NCBI RefSeq assembly: GCF_947241125.1
Contig: NZ_OX365700.1
Span: forward strand, 186,001 to 250,000
Direction: 5' to 3'
Source: Nitrospira tepida
Lineage (GTDB): Bacteria > Nitrospirota > Nitrospiria > Nitrospirales > Nitrospiraceae
DNA: 64,000 nt
The notes below the pieces were generated by a model that was not told the DNA's origin, searched no databases, and worked only from the letters and a program-made list of their open reading frames with translations. Both the position numbers and the translations under genes were made by a program. Numbering within the stretch: the first letter of the stretch is position 1; each line of letters starts with the position of its first letter. Shown piece by piece: positions 47,233 through 62,290 of the stretch.

Positions 47233-47523
47233 GTGGGTCGCTCAAAGAAACCTGTTGGCCAAAGCAAAACTGGTAAGACGGAAGGAGAGGACGCAGTCTA
47301 GCGGGATGGTTGCGACACGATCAAGAGCCGTCTGAATCGGTGCGCCGGCGCACCGACGTGCGCGGATACACGAAGCGGAATCGCGCTCGCCTGGGTGTCG
47401 TTCATCGCCGCCGACAGCATCCCATCGATAATGCCGCAGTTTCTTTAGCTTACCTTGCTGTTGTACAGTCCGACCGGGACGGTCCTCTTTTTGCTGATAG
47501 CCTCCCATGCGGAGAATTTTCCT

Positions 47524-49215
47524 ATGGAGATGGTTCTTCTTGCTGTAGCCCTGCTCCCCCCGCTGCTCTCGGGCGCGACGATCCCATTGTGCGGGTCGAA
47601 GTTGGGAGAACGGAGCGCATGGATCGGCATCGCGGCCCTCTGGGCGTCGGCCTTGTCATCCATCGCGATGATGACGGTCGTGCTTCAAGCGGGACCGGTC
47701 AAGTTGACGATTCTGGACGTCAACGCCGGAACCATGAGCCATGCGGTTCTGATCGACCGCCTGGCCGCCGTCATGATGGTTCTGATCACCTCGGTCAGCT
47801 TGGTGATTCACGTCTATTCGCGCCGATACATGGTCGGCGATGCGGGCTATGTGCGGTTCTTCTCGCTCCTGGGGCTGCTCACGTTCGTCCTGCTCAGCCT
47901 CGTGACCAGCGGAAACCTGCTGTGGCTGTTGCTCTGCTGGCATCTGGTCACCTGGCTGCTCGTGAAGCTGGTGTCGTTTCAGGGGTCGAGCCCAGCCGCC
48001 CTCCTAGCCGGGAGGCGAACGTTATGGATTCAGGGAGTCGGCGATACCGCCTTCGCGGCGGCGGCGCTGGTGCTCTATGCGACCTGTGGCACATTGGATC
48101 TGGATGGGATCTTTGCGGCCATCAGGCAGTCGCCGGTACGGACTATCGTATGGTTCGGTGCCGGGTTGGAGCTGGATGTCCCGTTCGTCACGACCCTGCT
48201 CCTGCTCCTGTCCGTGATGGCCAAGTCCGCTCAATTTCCCTTTCATATCTGGCTCCCCGGCACGATCGAGGCGCCCACGCCGGTGTCGGCTCTGCTGCAT
48301 GCGGGCATCGTGAACGCGGGCGGCTTCCTGGTCAACCGGCTGGCCCCGTTGTTCGGGTCCGCGCCGACGACTCTCAATCTGATGTTCCTGATCGGGGGGC
48401 TCACGGCCTTGATCGGCGCGGCCACGATGCTGACACAATCCAGCGTGAAGCGGACGCTGGTCTACTCCACGATGGGACAGATGGGCTACATGGTGATGGA
48501 GTGCGGATTGGGCGCCTTCGCGCTGGCGGTGTTTCACCTCTGCGCCCATGGACTGTTCAAGGCCACGCTGTTCTTGAACTCCGGCACGAACATTCACAAG
48601 GCCAGGAAGGAGTTCAAGCTCCCACCTGCAGCGCAGATCGAGCAGGCCGGGGCGTTCTCGGCGATCACCTGGGGCACCGGCCTCACCGTGACCCTGGTGT
48701 TGCCGCTGATCATCTTGCTGGCCGTCCATGGGGTGGTTCGCATCCCGTTGTTGGACGTGCAGGGAGCGGTCATTTTCCTGTTCTTCGGATGGGTCACGTC
48801 GTCCCAAGTGATGTTCAGCCTCTACCGGGCGCATAGCGGAGCGTCCTGGAAAGTGTCGCTGACGATGGTCGGGGCGCTCGCCTTGATCGGGATGACCTAC
48901 CTGTGGGCCGGCGAAGCCTTCACCCATTTCCTCTATCCCGGTCCGGGAGAGGCAGACGCCTACTTCCAGGCCGCCGAGTGGCATCCGTATCTGTTCGATG
49001 CCTTTATCGGCCTCTCGGCGGTCCTCATCGTGGCCGTCTGGGGCCTGATTTACGGAACGGCTCGCGGCGTGAAAGTGCTCGTGCCGGCGTGGATCGAAGG
49101 CCTTCGAACCAGGGCCTATGTGGCCTTTCTCAACGGACTCTATGTGGAAGATCTCGTGCGGACCTTTGAACGGCCGTCCCGTCGCCTGTCCTGCGACGCC
49201 GACGGCCGCCGCTAG
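47524..49215 (+). CDS. dabB: DabB-type membrane subunit (NuoL/MrpA-like) of the inorganic-carbon transporter
   Basis: The 563-residue polytopic protein is an antiporter-like subunit. Diagnostic motifs: VMAKSAQFPFHIWLPGTIEA, PTPVSALLHAGIVNAGGFLV, SSVKRTLVYSTMGQMGYMV and HLCAHGLFKATLFLNSG, all typical of NuoL/NdhF-type proton channels. In DabAB systems this subunit couples the proton gradient to CO2 hydration by DabA. The start at 47524 follows GCGGAGAA; the longer frame from 47455 lacks a site. dabA follows after 15 bp. The hypF gene diverges 291 bp upstream. Confidence 0.92.
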   Translation: MEMVLLAVALLPPLLSGATIPLCGSKLGERSAWIGIAALWASALSSIAMMTVVLQAGPVKLTILDVNAGTMSHAVLIDRLAAVMMVLITSVSLVIHVYSRRYMVGDAGYVRFFSLLGLLTFVLLSLVTSGNLLWLLLCWHLVTWLLVKLVSFQGSSPAALLAGRRTLWIQGVGDTAFAAAALVLYATCGTLDLDGIFAAIRQSPVRTIVWFGAGLELDVPFVTTLLLLLSVMAKSAQFPFHIWLPGTIEAPTPVSALLHAGIVNAGGFLVNRLAPLFGSAPTTLNLMFLIGGLTALIGAATMLTQSSVKRTLVYSTMGQMGYMVMECGLGAFALAVFHLCAHGLFKATLFLNSGTNIHKARKEFKLPPAAQIEQAGAFSAITWGTGLTVTLVLPLIILLAVHGVVRIPLLDVQGAVIFLFFGWVTSSQVMFSLYRAHSGASWKVSLTMVGALALIGMTYLWAGEAFTHFLYPGPGEADAYFQAAEWHPYLFDAFIGLSAVLIVAVWGLIYGTARGVKVLVPAWIEGLRTRAYVAFLNGLYVEDLVRTFERPSRRLSCDADGRR

Positions 49216-49230
49216 CGGGGTGATGGCGGC

Positions 49231-52200
49231 ATGACGGCGGAATCGCGCATGTTTTCCGACGCAGAACGGATGGAGGTGCGCTCGTATGTGCAATTGGCCG
49301 GCGAGGCGATTGCCCAGTACTGGCCCATGCGGACCTTCATTCACCACAATCCCCTGCATGGCCTGGAAAATCTTCCCTTCGATCAGGCCGTGAAGCGCGG
49401 CGAACAACTCTTCGGCGGGCGCGGGTACCTGCCCAACGGAGCCTATCGCCGGTATTTCGAGCAGGGCCTCGTCCGCGTCGAGGATCTCACACAAGTGCTC
49501 TCGTCGATCGCCACCGGGACTCAGGTGGTCTTCGGGGGGAGAGTGCTCTCGCACCTTGAGGTGCTTCGCCTGTCCATGATCCATGGCTTGGGGGAGCTGG
49601 CGGCCGACCCTTCCGGCTCGTCATCTCGAACGGAGGAGGCGGACCGACTGGCAGCCTGGGTGAAAGCCTCATTGGGTTCGGGGTTCGGGACGCCCCTAGA
49701 GCCGCCTGCGCAGTGGGAATCCATCGAGCTTTTGTCCAAAGAGACCTTGTCGGCCTGGTGCGACCAGACGCTGGGCACGGAGCTGGTCGCCACGATCAAC
49801 GAGCAGTTGATCAAGTGGTGCAGCGTGTTCCTGGACGAGGGCGAGGCGTCTTGGGTGATGCCGCGCCGTGAACGGACCTTCTATCGGGCCTGGAAGGCGC
49901 TGACTCGGTACGATGCCGCGCTGCGGTTGTTGGGCATCAAGGACGCGGGGGCCAAGATCGCCGCACTGGACGATCGACCGGAAGACGCGCTGCTTCGGCA
50001 TCTCGCCGCGATGAAGATCCCGAAGCCCTCCTGGGAGGCCTACTTCGCCCTGCATTTGGCGGCCCTGCCCGGCTGGACGGGCTATATCAAGTGGCGATCG
50101 GGCGAACCGGACTATCCGTGGCAAGTGCGCTATCCCATCGATCTGGTGAAGTATCTGGCCGTGCGGTTGTTTTATGAACGCGAACTGGTCGCCCTGGCCT
50201 GCCGGGATCGGCTCGGCCTCGACGGGCAGCATGAAGCCATCCGCGACGATGTCGATCGGGCTCCCCATGCCTACTGGCTTCGTCGCGAGCTGACCGGCGG
50301 CAGGCTCCCGCGGACGGTCGCCGAAGCCGCCCACAGGCTGGTGCGGACCTGGAACCAGAAATCGGCGGAAGAGCGGAACGAAGCGGCAAAGAAACTCTGC
50401 AACGAGACGGTCGAGCGGCGCGCCGCTGAGCGGGTGAGACGGGCGGCGCGGCAGTTGCTCGGCCTGGCGGCCGCGATCGGCGTGAGGCCGGACTCGATCA
50501 CCGAGACGGCCCCGGCCGATGCGCTCACGGTCGTGAATTGGCTGGAGGGGTTTCCCGCTTCCCAACAGAGCCGCCGGTGGCTGGAGGCCTTGGAAACGCG
50601 CCAGCGCCGTCAGGTCGTCGAACAGTTGACCGGAACGTTCGAGCAGGCGCGGCAGGGCGGCGGCCAGGTGGAGACGGCGCAGTCATCGAGGCCGTTGGCC
50701 CAGATGGTCTTCTGCATCGATGTGCGGTCGGAGGTGCTGCGACGGCACCTGGAGAATCTTGGCGGCTATGAGACACTGGGCCTGGCGGGATTCTTCGGCA
50801 TCCCGCTCAAGTATCAGGGGTTCGGGGCGGACCACAGCGTGACCCACTGTCCGGTCTTGCTCAAGCCAAGGAATCAGATCAGGGAGATTCCCCGGAGTTA
50901 CCACGGGCAGGCGGCCGAGCGGCATCGTTTGGGGGCCCGGCTCGCCAAGGTCGGCCATACCCTGCTGCACGATCTGAAGGAAAACGTCATCACGCCCTAT
51001 GTGATGGTCGAGGCGCTGGGGTGGTTTTTCGGCCTGCCGCTCTTCGGGAAAACGCTCTGTCCGCTGTGGTACCAGCGGATCGCTCAAGCCTTGCGACGGC
51101 TCCTCCTCCCTTCCCTGGCGACGACCTTGACGATCGACAAATTGACCAGAGAGGAAGCCACGGAGATGATGGCGGCCGAACAGCGCGCCGGCATCCGGGA
51201 AATCCTGCGGACCGAGTTCGCCCTCCGGGGCTCGACCGTGACACCGGCCTTGATCGAAGCCATTCGCCTCCGCGTCCTGGAGGGCACGAACGGAGCGGGC
51301 GGGGTCGAGGTGGCCAAAGCATTGGGAATTGGGCCGGCCGATGAAGCCGCCCTCTACGAGCGGTTGCGTCATCGACTCGACCTCACCCCGCGCGGGATGT
51401 CCGTCCGCCTCCATCGGATCACCCACCACGGCTTTTCCGTCGCGGAACAGGCTTACGGCGTAGAGGCGGCGCTCAGGTTGATGGGGCTCACCTCCGGCTT
51501 TGCGCGGTTGATGGTGGTCTGCGCCCACGGCAGCACGTCCGACAACAATCCCTATGAATCCGCGCTCGACTGCGGAGCTTGCGGCGGCAACAACGGCTTG
51601 CCGAACGCCAGGGCCTTCGCGGCGATGGCCAACCGGCAGGCTGTCCGCGACCTGCTGCGGACCCGCGGCATCGCCATTCCCAACGATACCCATTTCGCGG
51701 CCGCGGTGCACGATACGACCTGCGACGACGTGCGGATCGTGGATCTTGAGGACGTGCCGGCGACCCATCGCAAGGACCTTACGCGCCTGATCGCGGACCT
51801 CAAGGAAGCCGGCGCGCAGGCCGCCCTGGAGCGGGGCGCGGCGCTGGACGGGGGCGCCGTCCGCGATGGAGCCGCGGCGCGGTCGAGAGCCGCGCGGCGA
51901 AGCACCGACTGGGCGCAGGTCCGTCCGGAGTGGGGACTCTCGAAGAACAGCCTCATGGTCATCGGACGGCGGGAACTGACCAGAACCGTAAACCTACGAG
52001 GACGGGCCTTCCTCCACTCCTATGATCACCGGCAGGATGAATCGGGGAAGCTGCTCGAAACCATCATGACCGCTCCCCTGGTCGTGGCCCAATGGATCAA
52101 CATGGAGCATTACTTCTCCACGGTCGATAACGAGGTCTATGGGAGCGGCAGCAAGGTGTATCACAATGTCGTCGGACGGGTGGGCGTCATGAGCGGGGCC

Positions 52201-52548
52201 GGCAGCGATCTGCGGATCGGACTGCCCGCCCAGACCGTCCTGAACGGGCCGGCCCCCTATCACGAGCCCATGAGGTTGCTGGCGGTCATCGAGGCGCCGG
52301 TCAAGAGGGTCCAAGACGTGATCTCCAAACATCCGCACCTTGAGCAATTGTTCGACCAAGGCTGGGTGTCGCTGCTGGTCTTGGATCCGACCGACGGCCG
52401 GTTCTCTCGCTATGAGTTGATGGCGGGTTGGGAGGCGGTTCCGAGTCCGGCGCCGTCGGAGCCAGGTGATGCGTCGATCGCAGGCCTGACCGCCGCCGGA
52501 GAGAGTCAGCCGTTGCAAGACCCTGGACAGGTCACCGGGGTGCGGTAA
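49231..52548 (+). CDS. dabA: DabA inorganic-carbon transporter subunit (DUF2309)
   Basis: The 1105-residue protein is DabA, a carbonic-anhydrase-like soluble subunit that traps CO2 as bicarbonate. The zinc-site residues known for the family can be placed: FCIDVRSE gives Cys495 and Asp497, [25 protein letters not shown] gives His766 and Cys781, with the same 15-residue His-to-Cys spacing as characterised DabA. N-terminal [19 protein letters not shown] is conserved. It is longer than classical DabA, with inserts around 400-490 and an Ala/Arg-rich stretch near 865-895. Follows dabB by 15 bp. Confidence 0.93.
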   Translation: [1105 protein letters not shown]

Positions 52549-52656: not shown

Positions 52657-52986
52657 ATGAGCAGGTTGACGCTGCATCCCATGAAGGAAATCAGGATCGT
52701 GGTTCAGGGCGAACACCTGAGAATCGTGACCGATGTGCTGGACCGAGTCGGCGCGACCGGCTACACGATCATCCACAATGTCTCGGGCAAGGGCCATCAT
52801 GGATTCCACGAAGGCCACTTGTTGTTCGATGATACGAGTAGCCAAGTGATCGTCTTCACCGTGGTCCCGGAGGAGCGGATCGAGCCGATCCTGGCCGGGT
52901 TGACACCTCTGTTCAACAAACATTCGGGCGCGATGTTCGTGAGCGACGTCGCGGTGACCCGACGGGAGCATTTCGTGGCGACCTGA
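52657..52986 (+). CDS. PII-like small regulatory protein of the dab locus
   Basis: The 109-residue protein has a ferredoxin-like alpha/beta pattern like PII proteins: MKEIRIVVQGEHLRIVTDVL, then VGATGYTIIHNVSGKG and QVIVFTVVPEERIEPIL, ending FVSDVAVTRREHF. PII-like genes often accompany dabAB and probably bind a nucleotide to tune uptake. The T-loop tyrosine of GlnB is absent and the loop is His/Gly-rich (GKGHHGFHEGHL). GGGAGGA precedes the ATG at 52657. Confidence 0.82.
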   Translation: MSRLTLHPMKEIRIVVQGEHLRIVTDVLDRVGATGYTIIHNVSGKGHHGFHEGHLLFDDTSSQVIVFTVVPEERIEPILAGLTPLFNKHSGAMFVSDVAVTRREHFVAT

Positions 52987-53088
52987 TCTGGTCGAATCCG
53001 CTCCTCCGGCTCTCGACGATCCCGAGCCCGGGCCGATATACTGCCTTCGTCCGCTCCCGCGGCGAACGGAGCCCGCGTGGAGCCGAAG

Positions 53089-55101
53089 ATGCGGGACCCC
53101 ATGACCTCCTCCCATCGCCCTCGATCCAAAACGACCTCGCCGGTCCAATCAGAGGTGGCGGCGGCCGAAGTGCTGGCCTGGGTCAGCGACTGCATTCAAG
53201 GCGGTCTCTGCTTCGTCTGCAACGGCCTCCTGATCTTCGAAAACTCGCATTTTGCGGAGCTGGTCGAGGCGACGGAACTTCGCGCAGACGGGATCGAGCA
53301 TCGGTTGAGGAAGAGCCTCCTCGATGAAGCCATCCTGTGGAATCGGCGCCCGCTTGGTGCGAAGAAGTTGTCCGGATACCGGCTGAAGGATCGTCAGGGC
53401 CACCCGCTCCATTACGAGTGTCGTTTCAACGTGGTGCCCTATCGAGGCGAGCGCGGAGTGCTGATGGTGCTGGAGGACGTCACCGAACGGACGTTGCTCG
53501 CGCAGGAGGCGGCGCAGGCGGCCTGTTTCCAATCCGTGCTGGCCCGGATCGGCACGCTGGCGGTCAGTGATGAGCCGGCCCAGGCATTGATGAACGAGGC
53601 CGTTCGACTCACGGCTGAGGCATTGGGGGTGGATCTGTGCAAGATCCTGATTGCCCGGGAATCGGATGATCATCTCGCGGTCGTGGCCGGGGTCGGCATT
53701 GAGGAAGAGTTCATCGGCAAACTGACGATCGAGGGAGGGACCCACTCGCAGGCCGGGTTCGCTATCCGGGAGCGGCTGCCCGTGGTCGTGCGCGATCTTC
53801 GTGAAGAGACACGATTCACCCCGTCGAAATTGCTGACCGAGCACGGCGGCATCGCCGGGATGTGCGTGCCGATGTTGGTCGAAGACAAGGTCTACGGGGT
53901 GATGACGGCCCATTCGAAACAGGTCCGGGACTTCACGGAGAAAGAGCAGGCATTTCTATGCACGGTGGCCAATACGGTGGCCACCGTCCTGGAGCGAAAG
54001 CGGAGGGCCGACGCCCAAATCGATCTCTATCACCGTCTGTTCATGTCGGCGCAAGACGGCATCATGCTGACCGACACCGACGGCCGGATCCTCGAATGGA
54101 ACCCTGCGCTGGAACGGATGACGGGCTGGGCGCGCGAGGAGGCGTTGGGACAGCGGCCGTCGATCCTCAAGTCCGGGAAGCATTCGCCTGAATTTTACGA
54201 GCGGCTCTGGCACGCCATCCGATCAGGGAAGCCGTTTGTCGACCGCTTCGTCAATCGCCGGAAGGACGGCACGGAATTCCTGGTCTGGGAGAGCGTGAGC
54301 CCCGTGAAGGATCGCGACGAGATCACCCAATACTACCTGGCGATCCTCACCGACCTGAGCGAGCGGGAGCAGATGTTGGAGGCGCTGCGTCACACCGAGC
54401 AGGTCAAGCTGGTGGGGCAACTGGCCGGCGGCATTCTGCACGAGATCCGCAATCCGCTCATCGGGCTCGGGAGCCTCGCGACACATCTGGCCGAGCAGGA
54501 GCAGTTGCCGCAGGCCGCGCGCGACCGCTGCCGCCTCATTGCCCGGGAGGCGGCCCGTATCGACGAGCTGCTGGAGACCCATTTAGGCCAATTGCGTCCG
54601 CGTCCGTTCGATCTCCGGCCCTGCGACCTTCCGTCGCTCATCGACGACACGCTGACGCTGCTCCGGCCGAACCTACACAACCAGCAGATCAACGTGAAGA
54701 AGGCCATCGCCCCGGACCTGCCGCAAGTGGAGGCCTCGCGCGCGCACATCCAGCAGGCTTGTCTCAACATCATAATGAACGCGATCGACGCCATGCCCAA
54801 CGGGGGCGACCTGACGATCACGGCCAGGCCGGATACCAAACGGGGCCCCGGCTTGTTGTTGACGTTTTCGGATACGGGCAAAGGCATCCCCCCGGAGGAT
54901 TTGCAGCGTATCTTCGAGCCGTTCTTTACCAACGGCAAGGCGAAGGGCGTTGGCCTGGGCTTAACGATCACCCATGACATCATCGAGCGGCATGGCGGGC
55001 AATTGGCGATCGAAAGTCCGACGGGAAGCGGCGCAGTAGTCGAGGTGTGGTTGCCGGTGAAACAAGAGGTCTGCCATGACGTGGCACCTGTTGCTGGTTG
55101 A
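53089..55101 (+). CDS. GAF/PAS sensor histidine kinase
   Basis: The 670-residue soluble kinase has an N-terminal PAS-like domain, a GAF domain (about 165-315, with LGVDLCKILIARES and GMCVPMLVEDKVYGVMTA), a PAS domain (YHRLFMSAQDGIMLTDTDGR, WNPALERMTGW) and a kinase core with His in GGILHEIRNPLIGLGS, the N box QACLNIIMNAIDAMP and G boxes FSDTGKGIPP and GVGLGLTI. No membrane segment, so it senses a cytoplasmic cue. ATG at 53089 has GGAG 6 nt upstream. The 3' end overlaps the regulator gene by 26 nt. Confidence 0.9.
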   Translation: MRDPMTSSHRPRSKTTSPVQSEVAAAEVLAWVSDCIQGGLCFVCNGLLIFENSHFAELVEATELRADGIEHRLRKSLLDEAILWNRRPLGAKKLSGYRLKDRQGHPLHYECRFNVVPYRGERGVLMVLEDVTERTLLAQEAAQAACFQSVLARIGTLAVSDEPAQALMNEAVRLTAEALGVDLCKILIARESDDHLAVVAGVGIEEEFIGKLTIEGGTHSQAGFAIRERLPVVVRDLREETRFTPSKLLTEHGGIAGMCVPMLVEDKVYGVMTAHSKQVRDFTEKEQAFLCTVANTVATVLERKRRADAQIDLYHRLFMSAQDGIMLTDTDGRILEWNPALERMTGWAREEALGQRPSILKSGKHSPEFYERLWHAIRSGKPFVDRFVNRRKDGTEFLVWESVSPVKDRDEITQYYLAILTDLSEREQMLEALRHTEQVKLVGQLAGGILHEIRNPLIGLGSLATHLAEQEQLPQAARDRCRLIAREAARIDELLETHLGQLRPRPFDLRPCDLPSLIDDTLTLLRPNLHNQQINVKKAIAPDLPQVEASRAHIQQACLNIIMNAIDAMPNGGDLTITARPDTKRGPGLLLTFSDTGKGIPPEDLQRIFEPFFTNGKAKGVGLGLTITHDIIERHGGQLAIESPTGSGAVVEVWLPVKQEVCHDVAPVAG

Positions 55102-56476
55102 AGACGAGGCGTCCGTTCGCGAGGCTTTCGCGCTGCGCCTCGGCAACCAGGGCTACGTCGTGCAGACCGCCGCATCAGGGGAAGAGGCGCTGGCGCTGCT
55201 GCGCTCCTACGAACCGGATATTCTGGTGCTCGATCTGGTTATGCCCAAGCTCTCCGGTCTCGACGTGCTGGCCAGGGTCAAGCAGACCTCTCCCCATCTG
55301 CTGGTGATTCTGTTGACTGCCAGGGGGACGGTGAAGGACGCGGTGGAAGCGACGAAGCTGGGCGCATTCGATTTTGTCGCCAAATCCATCGATATGGAGG
55401 ACCTCCAACACGCGCTGAATCGAGCGACGGAGTTCTTGACGCTCCAGCGGCAGGTTCGCTTGCAGAGTGGGCAAGAATCGGCGCGCTATGCGCTCGACCG
55501 CGTGATCGCCAAGAGCCCGACTACCCAGAGTTTTCTCGCCCGGGTCCGCGAGCTGGCCAAGAACGACCGCGTCACGGTCCTCTTGCAGGGAGAGACCGGC
55601 ACAGGCAAGCAGTATATGGGCCGTGTGATCCACTTCAACAGCGCAAGGGCCCACAAACCCTGCATCGAGGTCGATTGTCCCGCGATTCCCCGCGAGCTGT
55701 TCGAGAGCGAGTTGTTCGGGCATGAAAAAGGGTCCTTCACAGGCGCCAGTGGCAGGCGGTGCGGCTTGATCGAAATGGCTGAAGGCGGCACCGTGTTGTT
55801 CGATGAAATCGGCGACTTGCCCCTTCCGTTGCAGACCAAATTGCTGCGGGTGATCGAGGAACGGGCGCTGCGACGTATCGGAGGCTCGACGACGATCCCG
55901 GTGGAGGTCCGGTTCATGGCCGCGACGAATCGCAACTTAAAAGAAGCCGTGGCCAAGGGAGAGTTTCGAGAGGATCTCTATTTCAGGCTGAACGTGGTCA
56001 CGTTAACCGTGCCACCGCTGCGGGATCGCCGCGAAGATATCATTCCGCTCGCTGAACAGTTCTTGGCTCGTTCCGCGCTTGCATTCAGGAAGCCGGTTCG
56101 CACGTTGGGAGAAAGCGCAGTCGCCGTCTTGTCTCGCTACCAATTTCCGGGGAACGTCCGGGAATTGAGCAACTTGATGGAGCGTGCGGTCCTGTTCTGT
56201 TCCGAGGAGTCCCTCGACGCGTCTCACTTTCCCTCTGACGTGCAGGACAGCCCCGTCACGTCGTCCATAGGTGCCTCCGCACCGCTGTCCGTTCCAGCCG
56301 GCTGGCTCGACCCGGCTCTGGTCCAGCTCACGTTTCGAGTGGGCGAGCAGTCCCTCGCCGACCTCGAGGATCGCATTATCAATGAGGTGCTGCGGCGGAC
56401 GGGCGGCAACAAGACTCTCGCCGCCAAGCAGCTCGGTATCACCCGTTGGATGCTGGACCGGCGGCGGAGGAGATAA
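55076..56476 (+). CDS. NtrC-family sigma-54 response regulator
   Basis: The 466-residue protein has a receiver domain ([13 protein letters not shown], phosphoacceptor Asp in [13 protein letters not shown]), a AAA+ domain with Walker [18 protein letters not shown], the sigma-54 contact loop GSFTGAS (Ser in place of the usual Ala in GAFTGA) and [13 protein letters not shown], and a C-terminal Fis-type helix-turn-helix, [20 protein letters not shown]. It pairs with the overlapping histidine kinase. The targets may include the sigma-54 promoter at 59077. Confidence 0.92.
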
Positions 56477-56666
56477 GCCTGTTGGCCTCGATCTGGTTGG
56501 ATTGCAGTCCCCGACAGCCGTGCCTGTCTGCTCCGGCTCAGGCGCACACGCGTCCCGTGCGAGCTGTGCAAGGACCAAGGCAACACGCGTTCTCTCCGCC
56601 TCCTTCTCGGATCCGGCACAAGACTTGGAACAACGAAATGAAGCGCCCGTGCGTTCGGAGGGAACG

Positions 56667-57464
56667 ATGCAACACCTGCGAGTGCTGGAAGACCACAGCG
56701 TCTATATTTTACGCGAGGCTTACAAGTGCTTCGACGATCTGGCCATGCTCTGGTCGATGGGCAAAGACTCGACCGTGCTGCTCTGGCTTGCGAGGAAGGC
56801 GTTTTTCGGCCACGTCCCCTTTCCGTTGGTGCACATCGACACCGGTTATGAAATGCCGGCTTTGATCGAGTACCGGGACCGGTTATGTCGCGAGTGGAGG
56901 CTCAATCTCGTCGTGGGCCAGAACAAGGACGCGCTTGCCGGAGGGATGGGACCCGAGCGCGGGCGCGTCACTTGCTGCACGGCCATGAAGATCGAGGCGT
57001 TGAAGCAGACGATCGCCGCGCACGGCTGGACGGCCGTCATCCTCGGCATCCGCGCGGACGAAGAAGGGACTCGGGCGAAAGAACGGTACTTTTCGCTCCG
57101 CGACAAGCACGGTGAATGGGATTTCCGCGACCAACCGCCCGAGCTATGGGACCAGTTCAATACGACCTTCCCTGCCGGTGCCCATGTTCGGGTCCATCCG
57201 CTGCTCGATTGGACCGAGCTCAACATCTGGGAGTATCTGGAGCTTGAGCAGATTCCCCTCCCGCCGCTCTACTTCGACCAGGGGAACGGCACGCGTTACC
57301 GCAGTCTCGGCTGCGTCCCTTGCACCGGCACGGTCAATTCCTGCGCGTCGACGATTCCGCAGATCATCGCCGAGCTTCGCACGACGACCGTCGCGGAACG
57401 CTCCGGCCGCGCGCAGGACGAGGGCCGCGGCATGGAAACGCTGCGCAAGCTCGGGCACATGTGA
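56667..57464 (+). CDS. CysD-like ATP sulfurylase/PAPS-reductase family protein with APS-reductase-type cysteines
   Basis: The 265-residue protein follows CysD along its length: PP-loop [50 protein letters not shown] and PELWDQFN, and the C-terminal [20 protein letters not shown]. It differs from CysD by having Cys103-Cys104 ([15 protein letters not shown]) and Cys216-x-x-Cys219 ([10 protein letters not shown]), the CC...CxxC layout that binds a [4Fe-4S] cluster in assimilatory APS reductase. No cysN is adjacent. GGAGGGA precedes the ATG. Confidence 0.8.
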
Positions 57465-59206: not shown

Positions 59207-59371
59207 GTGTTGGAACCGACCGTGGCTCGCTCGAACGAGGGAGACCGGAGCGATGAACGAATGACGCTGGACCAACTGGTCGCGCTCACCGATGAGCAAG
59301 CTCTCGTGCGCCTGGGGCTTGAACTGATGGAGGCCTTCGCGCGGGCCGAAGGGCGCAGCTTGTGGCATTAG
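59207..59371 (+). CDS. Small protein at the head of the Fe-S operon
   Basis: A 54-residue frame starts at GTG 59207 after AGGAAGG (59194-59200). Its C-terminal part, MTLDQLVALTDEQALVRLGL and ELMEAFARAEGRSLWH, reads as an acidic helical protein. No family is recognised. An alternative ATG start lies at 59261. It is followed after 47 bp by the IscU-like gene and is probably the first gene of the sigma-54-driven transcript. Confidence 0.45.
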   Translation: MLEPTVARSNEGDRSDERMTLDQLVALTDEQALVRLGLELMEAFARAEGRSLWH

Positions 59372-59418
59372 CGGACAGTGCTCGTTTCTGTTCAGCCCTG
59401 CACGAGGAGGAATGGAAC

Positions 59419-59880
59419 ATGGCCTATAGCGAGAAAGTTGTCGATCACTTCACCCACCCACGAAACATGGGCAGCTTGCCGAAAGAGGCTCCGGACGTCG
59501 GCACCGGAATCGTGGGCGCCCCTGAATGCGGCGATGTGATGAAACTGCAAATCAAGGTGCAGAACGACACGATCGTCGATGCGAAGTTCAAAACGTTCGG
59601 CTGCGGATCGGCGATCGCGAGTTCCAGCTTGGCCACCGAATGGCTGAAGGGCAAGACCATCGAGCAAGCGGCCGCGATCAAGAATACGGACATCGTCCAG
59701 GAACTGAACCTCCCCCCGGTCAAGATCCATTGTTCAGTCCTCGCCGAAGACGCGATCAAGGCGGCGTTGTCCGACTTTCAACACAAGACCGGCGCCGGCA
59801 GGCAATCCGGTCGCGGAGCAGGGACGCAGCCCGATTCCCCGGAGGGGGGGCAAAACCACATAGCACATTCGACCCCATGA
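59419..59880 (+). CDS. iscU: IscU-type Fe-S scaffold protein
   Basis: The 153-residue protein starts MAYSEKVVDHFTHPRNMGSL, as IscU does, with the three scaffold cysteines in GAPECGDVMKL, TFGCGSAIASSS and VKIHCSVLAEDAIKAAL. The LPPVK motif for HscA binding is present. The last 25 residues form a Gly/Gln-rich tail absent in typical IscU. GGAGGA precedes the ATG at 59419. No IscS cysteine desulfurase gene is in the window. Confidence 0.93.
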   Translation: MAYSEKVVDHFTHPRNMGSLPKEAPDVGTGIVGAPECGDVMKLQIKVQNDTIVDAKFKTFGCGSAIASSSLATEWLKGKTIEQAAAIKNTDIVQELNLPPVKIHCSVLAEDAIKAALSDFQHKTGAGRQSGRGAGTQPDSPEGGQNHIAHSTP

Positions 59881-59902
59881 CGCCGCGGCGGAGGGAGACC
59901 GT

Positions 59903-60247
59903 ATGAACTGTCCTCGATGCACCGGCTTGATGATACACGACGATTATTTCGATCTGCAGGACGAGGCCGGCCTGTGCACCTTTGCCGCCTGGCGCTGCCT
60001 GATCTGCGGAGAGGTCCTCGATCCGGTGATTCTCAAGCACAGGAGGTCCCCGCCTTCACCGATGGTAGATCGGGCACGGCCTCAGCTCCATCAGATCGTC
60101 TCGGTACGCACGAGAAAAGGGGCGGGCCGGTCCAGAGACCTCTGGAACGATCCGGACGGAACGGCCCTGCCGCTGGGCGCGAACGTGCTGGCGGACCTTG
60201 ACCTGGATAGTCGCATCGCAGCCGAGTTGGAAGATGTGGACGTGTGA
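59903..60247 (+). CDS. Small zinc-ribbon-like protein
   Basis: The 114-residue protein has CPRCTGLMIHDDYFD at the start and AWRCLICGEVLDP about 20 residues later, giving two CxxC pairs of a rubredoxin-/zinc-ribbon-like knuckle. The rest is polar with an acidic end. GGAGGGAG precedes the ATG. The family is not recognised; its operon position suggests an accessory role in Fe-S or redox chemistry. Confidence 0.6.
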   Translation: MNCPRCTGLMIHDDYFDLQDEAGLCTFAAWRCLICGEVLDPVILKHRRSPPSPMVDRARPQLHQIVSVRTRKGAGRSRDLWNDPDGTALPLGANVLADLDLDSRIAAELEDVDV

Positions 60248-60265
60248 CAAGAGGAGAAGATCTCT

Positions 60266-60613
60266 ATGGCGTTATTGATCACCGATGAGTGCATTTCCTG
60301 CGGAGCCTGTTTGCCGGAATGTCCCAACGAAGCGATTTTTGAAACGCGCAGCGACGCCGAGGCGAAGGGGTATCACGTCGGGGACGGTCAGGGTATCGGG
60401 GACAGCATTTATGTCATCACTCACGAGCGCTGTACGGAGTGCGTCGGCCATTTCGACGAGCCGCAGTGCGCCGCGGTCTGCCCCGTCGACAATTGCTGCA
60501 TCTCGGATCCGGCCTATCCGGAATCGAAAGAGGTGTTGTTGGAACGGGCGCAACGTCTCAATCCGGACAAAGAGATTCATCCCGACAAGGTCTGGAGCGG
60601 CGTGCGCGGCTAA
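60266..60613 (+). CDS. YfhL-type 2[4Fe-4S] ferredoxin
   Basis: The 115-residue ferredoxin has a first cluster site CISCGACLPECP and a second set ERCTECVGHFDEPQCAAVCP, which includes the insertion typical of YfhL/Alvin-type ferredoxins between Cys residues. The C-terminal helix (ERAQRLNPDKEIHPDK) is also typical. These ferredoxins have low-potential clusters and serve Fe-S assembly or oxidoreductases. AGGAGA precedes the ATG. Confidence 0.92.
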   Translation: MALLITDECISCGACLPECPNEAIFETRSDAEAKGYHVGDGQGIGDSIYVITHERCTECVGHFDEPQCAAVCPVDNCCISDPAYPESKEVLLERAQRLNPDKEIHPDKVWSGVRG

Positions 60614-60646
60614 CGGGCCCGGCTCGCTTCGTCGAGAGGGTTATCG

Positions 60647-60952
60647 ATGGCTGAGTTTGTCAGGGTCGCGGGCGTGAGCGATGTTCCGATGGGCAGCGGC
60701 CGCGTCTTCGAGGTCGGAGATCGCTCCATCGCGATTTTCAACGTCGATGGTTCGTTCTTCGCAACGGACAATACCTGCGCCCATCGCGGCGGTCCGCTCG
60801 GAGAAGGCGAGTTGGAGGGAGAAGTCGTGACCTGTCCCTGGCACAGTTGGGAATATAACGTCCGGACGGGCATCTCGCTCACGACGCCTTCTGCCTCCGT
60901 CAAGACATACGACGTGCAGGTCGATGGCGAGGATGTCAAGGTCCGGTTATAG
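60647..60952 (+). CDS. Rieske-type [2Fe-2S] ferredoxin (NirD/BphF-like)
   Basis: The 101-residue protein has both cluster boxes, NTCAHRGGPLGEGELEG and VTCPWHSWEYNV, of a soluble Rieske ferredoxin. It is related to the small subunit of nitrite reductase and to dioxygenase ferredoxins. No large partner lies in the window, so it is most likely an electron carrier used by the operon's products. Confidence 0.92.
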   Translation: MAEFVRVAGVSDVPMGSGRVFEVGDRSIAIFNVDGSFFATDNTCAHRGGPLGEGELEGEVVTCPWHSWEYNVRTGISLTTPSASVKTYDVQVDGEDVKVRL

Positions 60953-60999
60953 GGTCGGCCATTTCGGGAACACCTCACTCTTAAGCGAAGGAGCCGTTC

Positions 61000-61320
61000 A
61001 TGATCACCATCACGCCTCACGCGGAACAGAAAATCCGTGAGTTCGTGCAGCAAGAGCATGCAGCCGTCGGCCTGCGAATCTACGTACGCGGGGGAGGCTG
61101 TCACGGCTACCAATACGGCATGGCCCTCGAATCCACCGTCGCCGATGACGACACGGTCATCGAACAGGGCGACCTCACGATCATCATGGATTCCCAGAGC
61201 GCTCCCCTCCTTCAAGGAGCCGAGGTCGAATACTTGGACAGCGTGCAGGGCTCGGGATTCTCGATCAAGAACCCGCAAGCCAAGACAACCTGCGGCTGCG
61301 GCAGCTCGTTCAGTGCCTGA
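61000..61320 (+). CDS. IscA/ErpA-type Fe-S carrier
   Basis: The 106-residue A-type carrier has the three conserved cysteines in RGGGCHGYQYGM and TCGCGSSFS, with ITPHAEQKIREFV at the N-terminus and QGSGFSIKNPQAKTTCGCGS at the end. It transfers clusters from IscU to targets. Whether it is IscA, ErpA or SufA cannot be told by eye. GAAGGAG precedes the ATG. Confidence 0.93.
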   Translation: MITITPHAEQKIREFVQQEHAAVGLRIYVRGGGCHGYQYGMALESTVADDDTVIEQGDLTIIMDSQSAPLLQGAEVEYLDSVQGSGFSIKNPQAKTTCGCGSSFSA

Positions 61321-61359
61321 ACGGATCGAATCGCCACCGCCAATCTACAGGAGCTCTTG

Positions 61360-61683
61360 ATGATTCCCATCATCACGCCGCGCGAACTGAACGATCGACT
61401 CGACAAGGGAGACAAGTTGGTTCTTCTCGATGTGCGGGAGCCCTGGGAATACAACCTCGCAAAAATCGCGGGCTCGCAGCTCATTCCGCTGGGAACGCTG
61501 CCGCAATCGCTCGCCAAGCTGGACCGGAACGCGGAGATCGTCGTGTATTGCCATCATGGGATGCGAAGCGCCGATGCCGCCGGCTTCCTCTTTCAGCAGG
61601 GATTTGCAAGGGTGAAAAACCTCGTCGGCGGGATCGACGCCTGGTCGGTGCAGATCGATCCCGCCGTGCCCCGGTACCGCTGA
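61360..61683 (+). CDS. Single-domain rhodanese
   Basis: The 107-residue protein has a rhodanese domain with the active-site loop YCHHGMRSADAA and VLLDVREPWEYN. It can carry sulfane sulfur, which could serve Fe-S assembly in the absence of a local IscS. AGGAG lies 6 nt before the ATG at 61360. The stop is 4 bp before the nuoI-like gene. Confidence 0.92.
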   Translation: MIPIITPRELNDRLDKGDKLVLLDVREPWEYNLAKIAGSQLIPLGTLPQSLAKLDRNAEIVVYCHHGMRSADAAGFLFQQGFARVKNLVGGIDAWSVQIDPAVPRYR

Positions 61684-61687
61684 AACC

Positions 61688-62290
61688 ATGGGCGCGGTCT
61701 CTCATCGGCGATCCAGTTGGACGTCGAGGCTCGTCGAGTGGTTGAAGACGCTCACGTTCTACGAAATCGCGCTCGGGATGAAAGCCACCCTGACGCATCT
61801 TCTGCGCTACCGCCCGGTCACGATTCAATATCCCCACGAGAAGCGCCTCCTGCCGGACAATTACCGCGGCATGCTCGCACTGCTGCGCTATGACGACGGC
61901 ACGGAGAAATGCGTGGGCTGCGACCTCTGCGAAGCCGCGTGTCCCAGCCGCGTCATCACCGTCGTCAGCGCCGAAGTCCCCGGCGAACCGATCAAGCGGT
62001 ACGCCAAGGAATATTACATGGACATGACCCGCTGCCTCTTCTGCGGGATGTGCGTCCAGGCCTGTCCGGTCGACGCGCTGGCCATGACGCGGGAATATGA
62101 ATGGTCCGTCTACGACAAGCGGCACCTCTTTCTGAACAAGGAGCAGCTTCTGGCCATCGGCGACCGCAATTTTCCCATCCGAGAGAAACGGTTGGAGCTC
62201 CAACATCCCAACGTCGCCTTCTTCAACGTCGCGTTTCCCGACAGTCCGCCGAGGGATGCCGCACCTCTCCGCACGAGCGGTACCGGCTGA
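61688..62290 (+). CDS. nuoI: NuoI-type 2[4Fe-4S] protein
   Basis: The 200-residue protein matches complex I subunit I: GMKATLTHLLRYRPVTIQYP at the N-terminus, then the cluster motifs CVGCDLCEAACP and CLFCGMCVQACP, and the C-terminal VYDKRHLFLNKEQLL. It stands alone here, without other nuo genes, at the end of the Fe-S operon; either a second copy or one detached from the main complex I locus. Confidence 0.9.
   Translation: MGAVSHRRSSWTSRLVEWLKTLTFYEIALGMKATLTHLLRYRPVTIQYPHEKRLLPDNYRGMLALLRYDDGTEKCVGCDLCEAACPSRVITVVSAEVPGEPIKRYAKEYYMDMTRCLFCGMCVQACPVDALAMTREYEWSVYDKRHLFLNKEQLLAIGDRNFPIREKRLELQHPNVAFFNVAFPDSPPRDAAPLRTSGTG

Follow-up and report, generated by a model that had tools for sequence, protein, structure and literature searches.

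It is established that, in canonical CysDN, the hydrolysis of GTP by CysN drives the formation of APS. DndC, a PP-loop protein, carries a cluster, and, to our knowledge, it is still an open question why APS reductase should carry a [4Fe-4S] cluster in the absence of obvious electron shuttling. A divergent CysDN has been described in ANME archaea together with a tree of CysD (PMC6286981), and CysDNC has been named in Nitrospina gracilis alongside genes for sulfate assimilation (PMC3578206). Within the part of PMC6286981 that was covered, Fe-S domains are ascribed to APS/PAPS reductases, and no cysteine ligands are ascribed to CysD. Likewise, no report of Fe-S ligands in CysD was found in the open-access literature searched.

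Here we describe a CysD-like protein encoded in a stretch of 64,000 nucleotides of the Nitrospira tepida genome (“the window”; contig NZ_OX365700.1, positions 186,001 to 250,000). This protein resembles CysD (1ZUN; E. coli b2752) in its homology over the full length, in the PP-loop S-x-GKDS, in a set of conserved arginines and in the C-terminal region, and nearly all of its relatives have the partner CysN beside them. Unlike E. coli CysD, which keeps one of the four site cysteines and bears a 28-residue insertion, the window copy has all four cysteines and no insertion, and it has no CysN beside it. With APS reductases of the CysH type (2GOY) it shares the fold (Z 20.8), the four ligand positions and the lysine that follows, but it lacks their ECGLH tail, has an intact PP-loop and falls far below the cut-off of the corresponding model. 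The likeness to DndC and TtuA, which consists of a PP-loop fold with cluster cysteines, is offset by a low DndC model score and a weaker fold match to TtuA. ANME relatives (L125, L097) belong to the set of homologues collected here, whereas the ANME study places its Fe-S domains in reductases.

Sequence, fold and cysteine site of the window protein

The window gene (Table 1) is an open frame for a 265-residue protein matched by Pfam PF01507 (E 1.7e-43). The initial annotation had aligned this protein with CysD throughout, and profile searches confirmed it: the score for the NCBIfam model NF003587 ‘CysD’ is 349 bits (E 2e-104) where 195 would suffice, so that the CysD family cut-off is passed, and phmmer aligns the protein with P. 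syringae CysD (PDB 1zun_A) at E 1.3e-63. The stricter CysD models TIGR02039 (260 bits, cut-off 396.6) and NF009214 (269 bits, cut-off 413) are missed, and neither the APS-reductase model TIGR02055 (52 bits, cut-off 235.3) nor the DndC model TIGR03183 (15 bits, cut-off 290.4) is reached. An AlphaFold2 model (pLDDT 90.0, pTM 0.90), generated from an alignment of 143 homologues, found its best solved structural match in 1zun_A (Z 26.0, rmsd 1.4 over 192), followed by the APS/PAPS reductases 4bwv (Z 22.2), 2oq2 (21.1) and 2goy (20.8); Foldseek also placed 1zun_A and 2goy at the top. One of these close matches, the moss APS reductase 4bwv, works without a cluster, which weakens the case for one in CysD. 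Cluster-bearing structures of TtuA and NcsA were found in the same list of fold matches (TtuA 5b4f, Z 12.2).

Table 1 Features in and around the four-cysteine CysD gene, in window coordinates
Feature	Position	Strand	Basis
Proton_antipo_M protein, DabB-like by position, just upstream of dabA	47455..49215	+	domain scan
DabA, probable inorganic carbon transporter subunit	49231..52548	+	PF10070, 905 bits
P-II-like protein	52657..52986	+	PF00543
GAF/PAS histidine kinase, conserved paralogue neighbour	53077..55101	+	domain scan, neighbourhood comparison
Response regulator, sigma-54 type from sequence reading; conserved paralogue neighbour	55076..56476	+	
CysD paralogue, four-cysteine, insertion-less	56667..57464	+	265 aa; profile and structure-database matches
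PP-loop S-M-G-K-D-S, CysD type	56754..56771	+	residues 30-35
Cys103-Cys104, first half of putative [4Fe-4S] site	56973..56978	+	alignment and conservation
Cys216-x-x-Cys219, second half of putative [4Fe-4S] site	57312..57323	+	alignment and conservation

Cysteines are found in the window protein at residues 21, 74, 103, 104, 216, 219 and 226. When the protein was aligned with P. aeruginosa APS reductase (2goy) using phmmer, C103/C104 fell on residues 139/140 and C216/C219 on residues 228/231, which we take to be the [4Fe-4S] ligands of that enzyme, while K108 fell on K144, presumably its substrate lysine. Both cysteine pairs singled out by the initial annotation are thus present, and its proposal that they represent the CC...CxxC ligand set of APS reductase on a CysD scaffold is upheld by this alignment and by their conservation across the family (see below). 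Its further claim that E. coli CysD lacks these cysteines holds for three of the four: in the E. coli protein (NC_000913, b2752) Cys251 stands at the place of C216, so that only the other three ligand cysteines are missing. The 28-residue stretch of E. coli CysD that follows window residue 204 is absent from the window protein, and neither of the traits of canonical E. coli-type CysD, the insertion after about residue 204 and the missing CC/CxxC, fits it.

At the active site, the PP-loop S-x-GKDS (G32-K33-D34-S35) and residues R129, E132, K138, R140 and R175 show no variation among the CysD rows that were compared, whereas in CysH the PP-loop is degenerate in 10 of 10 rows and, R129 apart, the CysD-invariant places are mostly different (n = 12, 159, 16 and 24; these residue counts omit every row whose locus handle starts with L06 or L07, as well as a row of L041). 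The CysH C-terminal tail reads ECGLH in 12 of 13 rows and ECGIH in the remaining one; an ECG(L/I)H tail was sought in the window protein and found to be absent. Since the CysD-type PP-loop is intact and this tail is missing, the window protein does not appear to be a reductase, and its chemistry is expected, from its sequence, to be adenylyl transfer rather than reduction. An earlier suggestion that it reduces activated sulfate is not supported, in view of these two features, the low APS-reductase score and the adjacency of CysN in the family.

Conservation of the four cysteines and linkage to CysN

Homologues were gathered from relatives (61 genomes, that of the window included), from 245 genomes of the phylum, from a named GTDB scan in which the best 80 of 576 confirmed stretches were kept as loci, and from samples of three further phyla (148, 199 and 119 genomes). 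This sampling is uneven: the phylum set and the named scan favour close relatives, and the three further phyla were searched with the window protein as query. The 246 hits gave 220 distinct rows, from which one fragment and two duplicates were removed and to which the window row was added, leaving 218.

Among the matches listed, 176 of the 218 distinct homologues lack the insertion, and 173 of these possess all four cysteines (the exceptions being L162, L100 and L106). Taken place by place, cysteine is found in 175 (C103), 175 (C104), 176 (C216) and 173 (C219) of the insertion-less proteins, while the places of C21, C74 and C226 hold a cysteine in 2, 9 and 12; the four-cysteine pattern is therefore not a matter of chance. 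The remaining 42 homologues bear the CysD insertion, which is 27-31 residues long. Eleven of them have all four cysteines, 26 have the one at C216 alone (YTCL, HTCL, WTCL), and the rest read CACC (2), CGCC (1) or SRDC (2) at the four places. These last five insertion-type proteins (L232, L242, L241, L243 and L245) are possible intermediates of ligand loss. All four cysteines are present in 77 of the 80 named loci, bacterial and archaeal, among the matches listed, and these loci represent at least 20 named phyla from the two domains, with some further loci that are unplaced. The four-cysteine CysD is a real, conserved and widespread variant with an APS-reductase-type ligand set. What had been called a hybrid family thus stands as a family, but not as a one-off hybrid.

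Two further observations concern the diversity of this set. A subtype that we call ‘i119’ (L200-L209, L177-L179 and others; 18 of the 176 insertion-less proteins, all with four cysteines) has an extra stretch near residue 119, and the seven rows of it included in a tree group as a single clade close to those of Nitrospira. The genome of Geomonas propionica (G275, L087) possesses three kinds of CysD: two short forms, one of which is Nitrospira-like, and one with the insertion.

To the extent that contigs allow, CysD and CysN are closely linked across this family. CysN was found within 3.5 kb of CysD in 76 of the 80 named loci, and within 200 bp in 63 of them, among the matches listed, and three of the four loci without it have at most 616 bases of contig downstream. 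Across the loci from genome searches, CysN lies beside 65 of 67 short forms, 13 of 18 i119 forms, 16 of 16 insertion forms with four or part of the cysteines, and 25 of 26 canonical forms. The adjacency seen in the named loci indicates an ATP sulfurylase. CysH lies within 5 kb in nine of the 80 named loci, among the matches listed.

Other neighbours were also noted. A protein resembling type I phosphodiesterases/nucleotide pyrophosphatases was found within 5 kb in 36 of the 80 named loci, among the matches listed, and in all 36 CysH is not nearby (examples are L083:4638-5987, L077:5386-6741 and L038:4584-6275, with PF01663 in the examples scanned); such neighbours could reflect a context of sulfation or of APS/PAP handling. 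A scan of 87 of the 143 neighbour proteins listed identified 35 CysN-kind GTPases, 14 proteins with PF01663 and six with TauE. The CysN proteins of a Nitrospira (L040:9395-11206) and a Nitrospina (L143:6802-8625) locus end in what matches only part of an APS-kinase domain, and weakly so (profile positions 2-107 and 2-95 of 152, at 56 and 46 bits, respectively); this domain is perhaps degenerate, and the APS-kinase domain of the canonical CysNC of L035 scores 236 bits.

The N. tepida genome, a single contig of 4.73 Mb, codes for two four-cysteine CysD proteins: the window copy and the main-operon copy at 610706-611500, which are 74% identical. Ordinary CysD was sought in this complete genome and none was found, the profile returning the two CysD copies and CysH only. 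Sat, the homomeric ATP sulfurylase, was not found there either, using a model that finds Sat in five of 14 control genomes. With both Sat and ordinary CysD missing, we found no enzyme other than four-cysteine CysD that could be a candidate for activating sulfate in this genome. The main sulfate operon-like run has the order Rrf2, sulfite reductase, CysH (of the APS reductase type), TrpD-like protein, CysD and CysN, as read mainly in a relative's locus (L040); the presence of CysH and CysD was borne out by L034. The CysH of this operon has the same four cysteines, and the only full-length CysN of the N. tepida genome starts about 50 bp after the main-operon CysD. The TrpD-like protein between CysH and CysD (L040:7298-8407) belongs to glycosyl transferase family 3.

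The window-type paralogue and its surroundings

The window copy is one of 12 distinct window-type paralogues, the other 11 of which are 84-92% identical to it, and it shares about 69-77% identity with complete CysD proteins from the main operons of relatives. In 11 comparisons with the window gene, third codon positions account for 121-155 nucleotide differences, first positions for 19-36 and second positions for 7-20, and the paralogue is thus under purifying selection. Changes that are specific to the paralogue and fixed, or nearly so, are K62E, L107M, T109I (11 of 12), P144L and Y264H. Three of these (K62E, T109I and Y264H) fall at places that are otherwise nearly fixed in CysD, and T109I resembles the I/V found at the same place in CysH.

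CysN lies beside none of the 12 paralogues, the window copy included. Where the contig permits, the neighbours of the paralogue in other genomes include a DabB-like protein, DabA, P-II, a histidine kinase and a response regulator, often with a second DabA. In the window, the first five of these are found on the left of the paralogue, with no second dabA behind it. Amongst the 62 same-family genomes with a match, a full-length paralogue is present in 13 and a broken or partial one in three (G147:C1:1121708-1122295, G232:C10 and G244:C137). The broken or partial copies imply that the paralogue is dispensable, and, together with the missing CysN and the substitutions, that it may have changed its role.

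Downstream in the window (59362-62290) lies a run of Fe-S related genes coding for a NifU_N/IscU-like protein, a ferredoxin, a Rieske protein, a HesB-type protein, a rhodanese and a dicluster ferredoxin. Used as queries, the Fe-S proteins of the window matched nothing in the loci of the other paralogues, which are short. The idea that the protein supplies adenylated sulfur to the assembly of Fe-S clusters or cofactors gains no direct support here: Fe-S genes lie nearby, but the neighbours common to other copies are those of the DabAB/P-II/two-component set. Two further candidates were discarded. A possible sigma-54 promoter upstream of the gene (56614-56628; TGGCAC-N5-TTGC with two mismatches) does not count as evidence, because the window contains 44 such matches against 63 expected by chance. 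An apparent CysH beside the paralogue in L005, L041, L046 and L067 proved, in L041 and L067, to be the CysD paralogue itself.

Putative function, alternatives and ancestry

The reading that we favour, with a probability of roughly 0.7, is that the window protein is a member of a large, mostly insertion-less lineage of CysD, the subunit that carries out adenylylation in the heterodimeric ATP sulfurylase CysDN, and that this lineage has all four of the residues with which APS reductase binds its [4Fe-4S] cluster, and a putative cluster of its own. The conservation of the four cysteines, the adjacency of CysN and a genome without Sat together lead us to see in this protein the subunit of an ATP sulfurylase that carries out catalysis. 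In such an enzyme, ATP would be bound by the PP-loop, and sulfate may be held beside the cysteine pair by Lys108, a role suggested by the presence of this lysine in APS reductase. APS and pyrophosphate would then be formed, with GTP hydrolysis by CysN driving the step. The putative cluster on C103, C104, C216 and C219 would play a structural or electrostatic part near the sulfate pocket, and not a redox one. The window copy itself is a duplicate, of Nitrospira type, of the CysD in the main operon, kept by selection without a CysN of its own in the DabAB/P-II regulatory cluster and probably under separate control. It most likely still makes APS, either alone or with the single chromosomal CysN.

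The chief alternative for the window copy, which we regard as somewhat unlikely but as a serious rival, is that the paralogue has left sulfate activation and, within the DabAB/P-II cluster, now uses a different oxyanion for adenylylation or produces a nucleotide signal. The lack of an adjacent CysN in every distinct copy, the presence of DabA, P-II, a histidine kinase and/or a regulator wherever the contig reaches, and the fixation of K62E and Y264H are all consistent with such a change. Yet the ATP-site and arginine residues compared are all kept, the identity to main-operon CysD proteins of relatives is about 69-77%, and a neighbourhood is by itself weak evidence, the more so as the window copy lacks the second dabA that several others have behind them. 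There is a smaller chance again that the protein is an otherwise ordinary ATP sulfurylase subunit in which the four cysteines hold a structural zinc or act as a redox switch of the thiol/disulfide kind; they may also be free thiols. CC plus CxxC is able to bind zinc in other proteins, and three-cysteine variants do occur among the insertion forms (CACC and CGCC), but both the fold and the four places match those of a [4Fe-4S] APS reductase, and the CysH of the main operon has the same four.

The remaining two readings were rejected. A PP-loop sulfurtransferase of the DndC/TtuA kind, in which a cluster would move sulfur, is very unlikely: cluster-bearing TtuA and NcsA structures do appear among the fold matches, and the downstream part of the window codes for a rhodanese, a NifU-like protein and ferredoxins, but the fold match to TtuA is far weaker than that to CysD (Z 12.2 against 26.0), the DndC score is a small fraction of its cut-off, and the Fe-S proteins are without a match in the (short) loci of other paralogues. 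Least probable of all is an enzyme akin to APS reductase, with activated sulfate being reduced. This would account for the four ligand cysteines and the K108 motif, but it is at odds with the missing ECGLH tail, with a PP-loop that is intact, unlike that of all ten CysH rows, with a TIGR02055 score of 52 out of 235 bits and with the presence of a true CysH in the main operon.

To place the four-cysteine forms relative to ordinary CysD and CysH, trees were built from rows thinned by identity (113 unmasked, 110 in a quick masked tree and 50 in a careful masked tree); for the masked trees, the four cysteine columns and the insertions were masked and three of 13 CysH rows left out. In the quick masked tree, which the unmasked tree resembles, the insertion clade (support 100) lies inside the short four-cysteine forms (a branch of 54 rows, 99), and the canonical forms that have lost three cysteines make up one branch (97). 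In the careful tree, the short (58/81) and insertion (94/94) forms are sisters, and the insertion forms with four or part of the cysteines constitute one branch (99/94) among canonical ones, with a weakly supported placement; the AU test does not reject a tree in which all canonical forms make up one clade (p-AU 0.31). The root of all these trees depends on a very long outgroup branch, which makes their deep order unsure. In them, ordinary CysD branches within or beside the four-cysteine forms, and the nesting of the window protein's kind within ordinary CysD was not seen, the insertion-less four-cysteine forms lying outside the insertion clade. The four ligand cysteines are present in 10 of 10 CysH rows. 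Since the same four are found in CysH, in short CysD and in part of the insertion-bearing CysD proteins, an ancestral site followed by later loss is the simplest account, and the four-cysteine form may be ancestral to both CysD and CysH; canonical CysD would then have acquired the insertion and dropped three of the ligands.

A broader scenario, tentative and as a whole improbable, would join these strands, with a [4Fe-4S] ATP sulfurylase ancestral to CysD and a Nitrospira duplicate that couples sulfur activation to carbon uptake. Under this scenario, the cluster would be older than, and independent of, sulfur reduction, and would position sulfate in a non-redox adenylyl transfer; it would have been kept by APS reductase and lost by canonical CysD as the latter gained its insertion. 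In some Nitrospira, the duplicate would then have become detached from CysN and been placed in an inorganic-carbon (DabAB/P-II) cluster, where sulfur and carbon might be linked through APS, through a related nucleotide or through an oxygen-sensitive cluster itself.

If true, an ATP sulfurylase with an Fe-S cluster would have no precedent in the open-access literature searched. A non-redox relative with the same four ligands would allow the role of the cluster to be tested by comparing CysD proteins with and without it, and would give a direction to the evolution of the CysD/CysH superfamily. It would also predict sulfate activation that is sensitive to oxygen and iron in many uncultured lineages.
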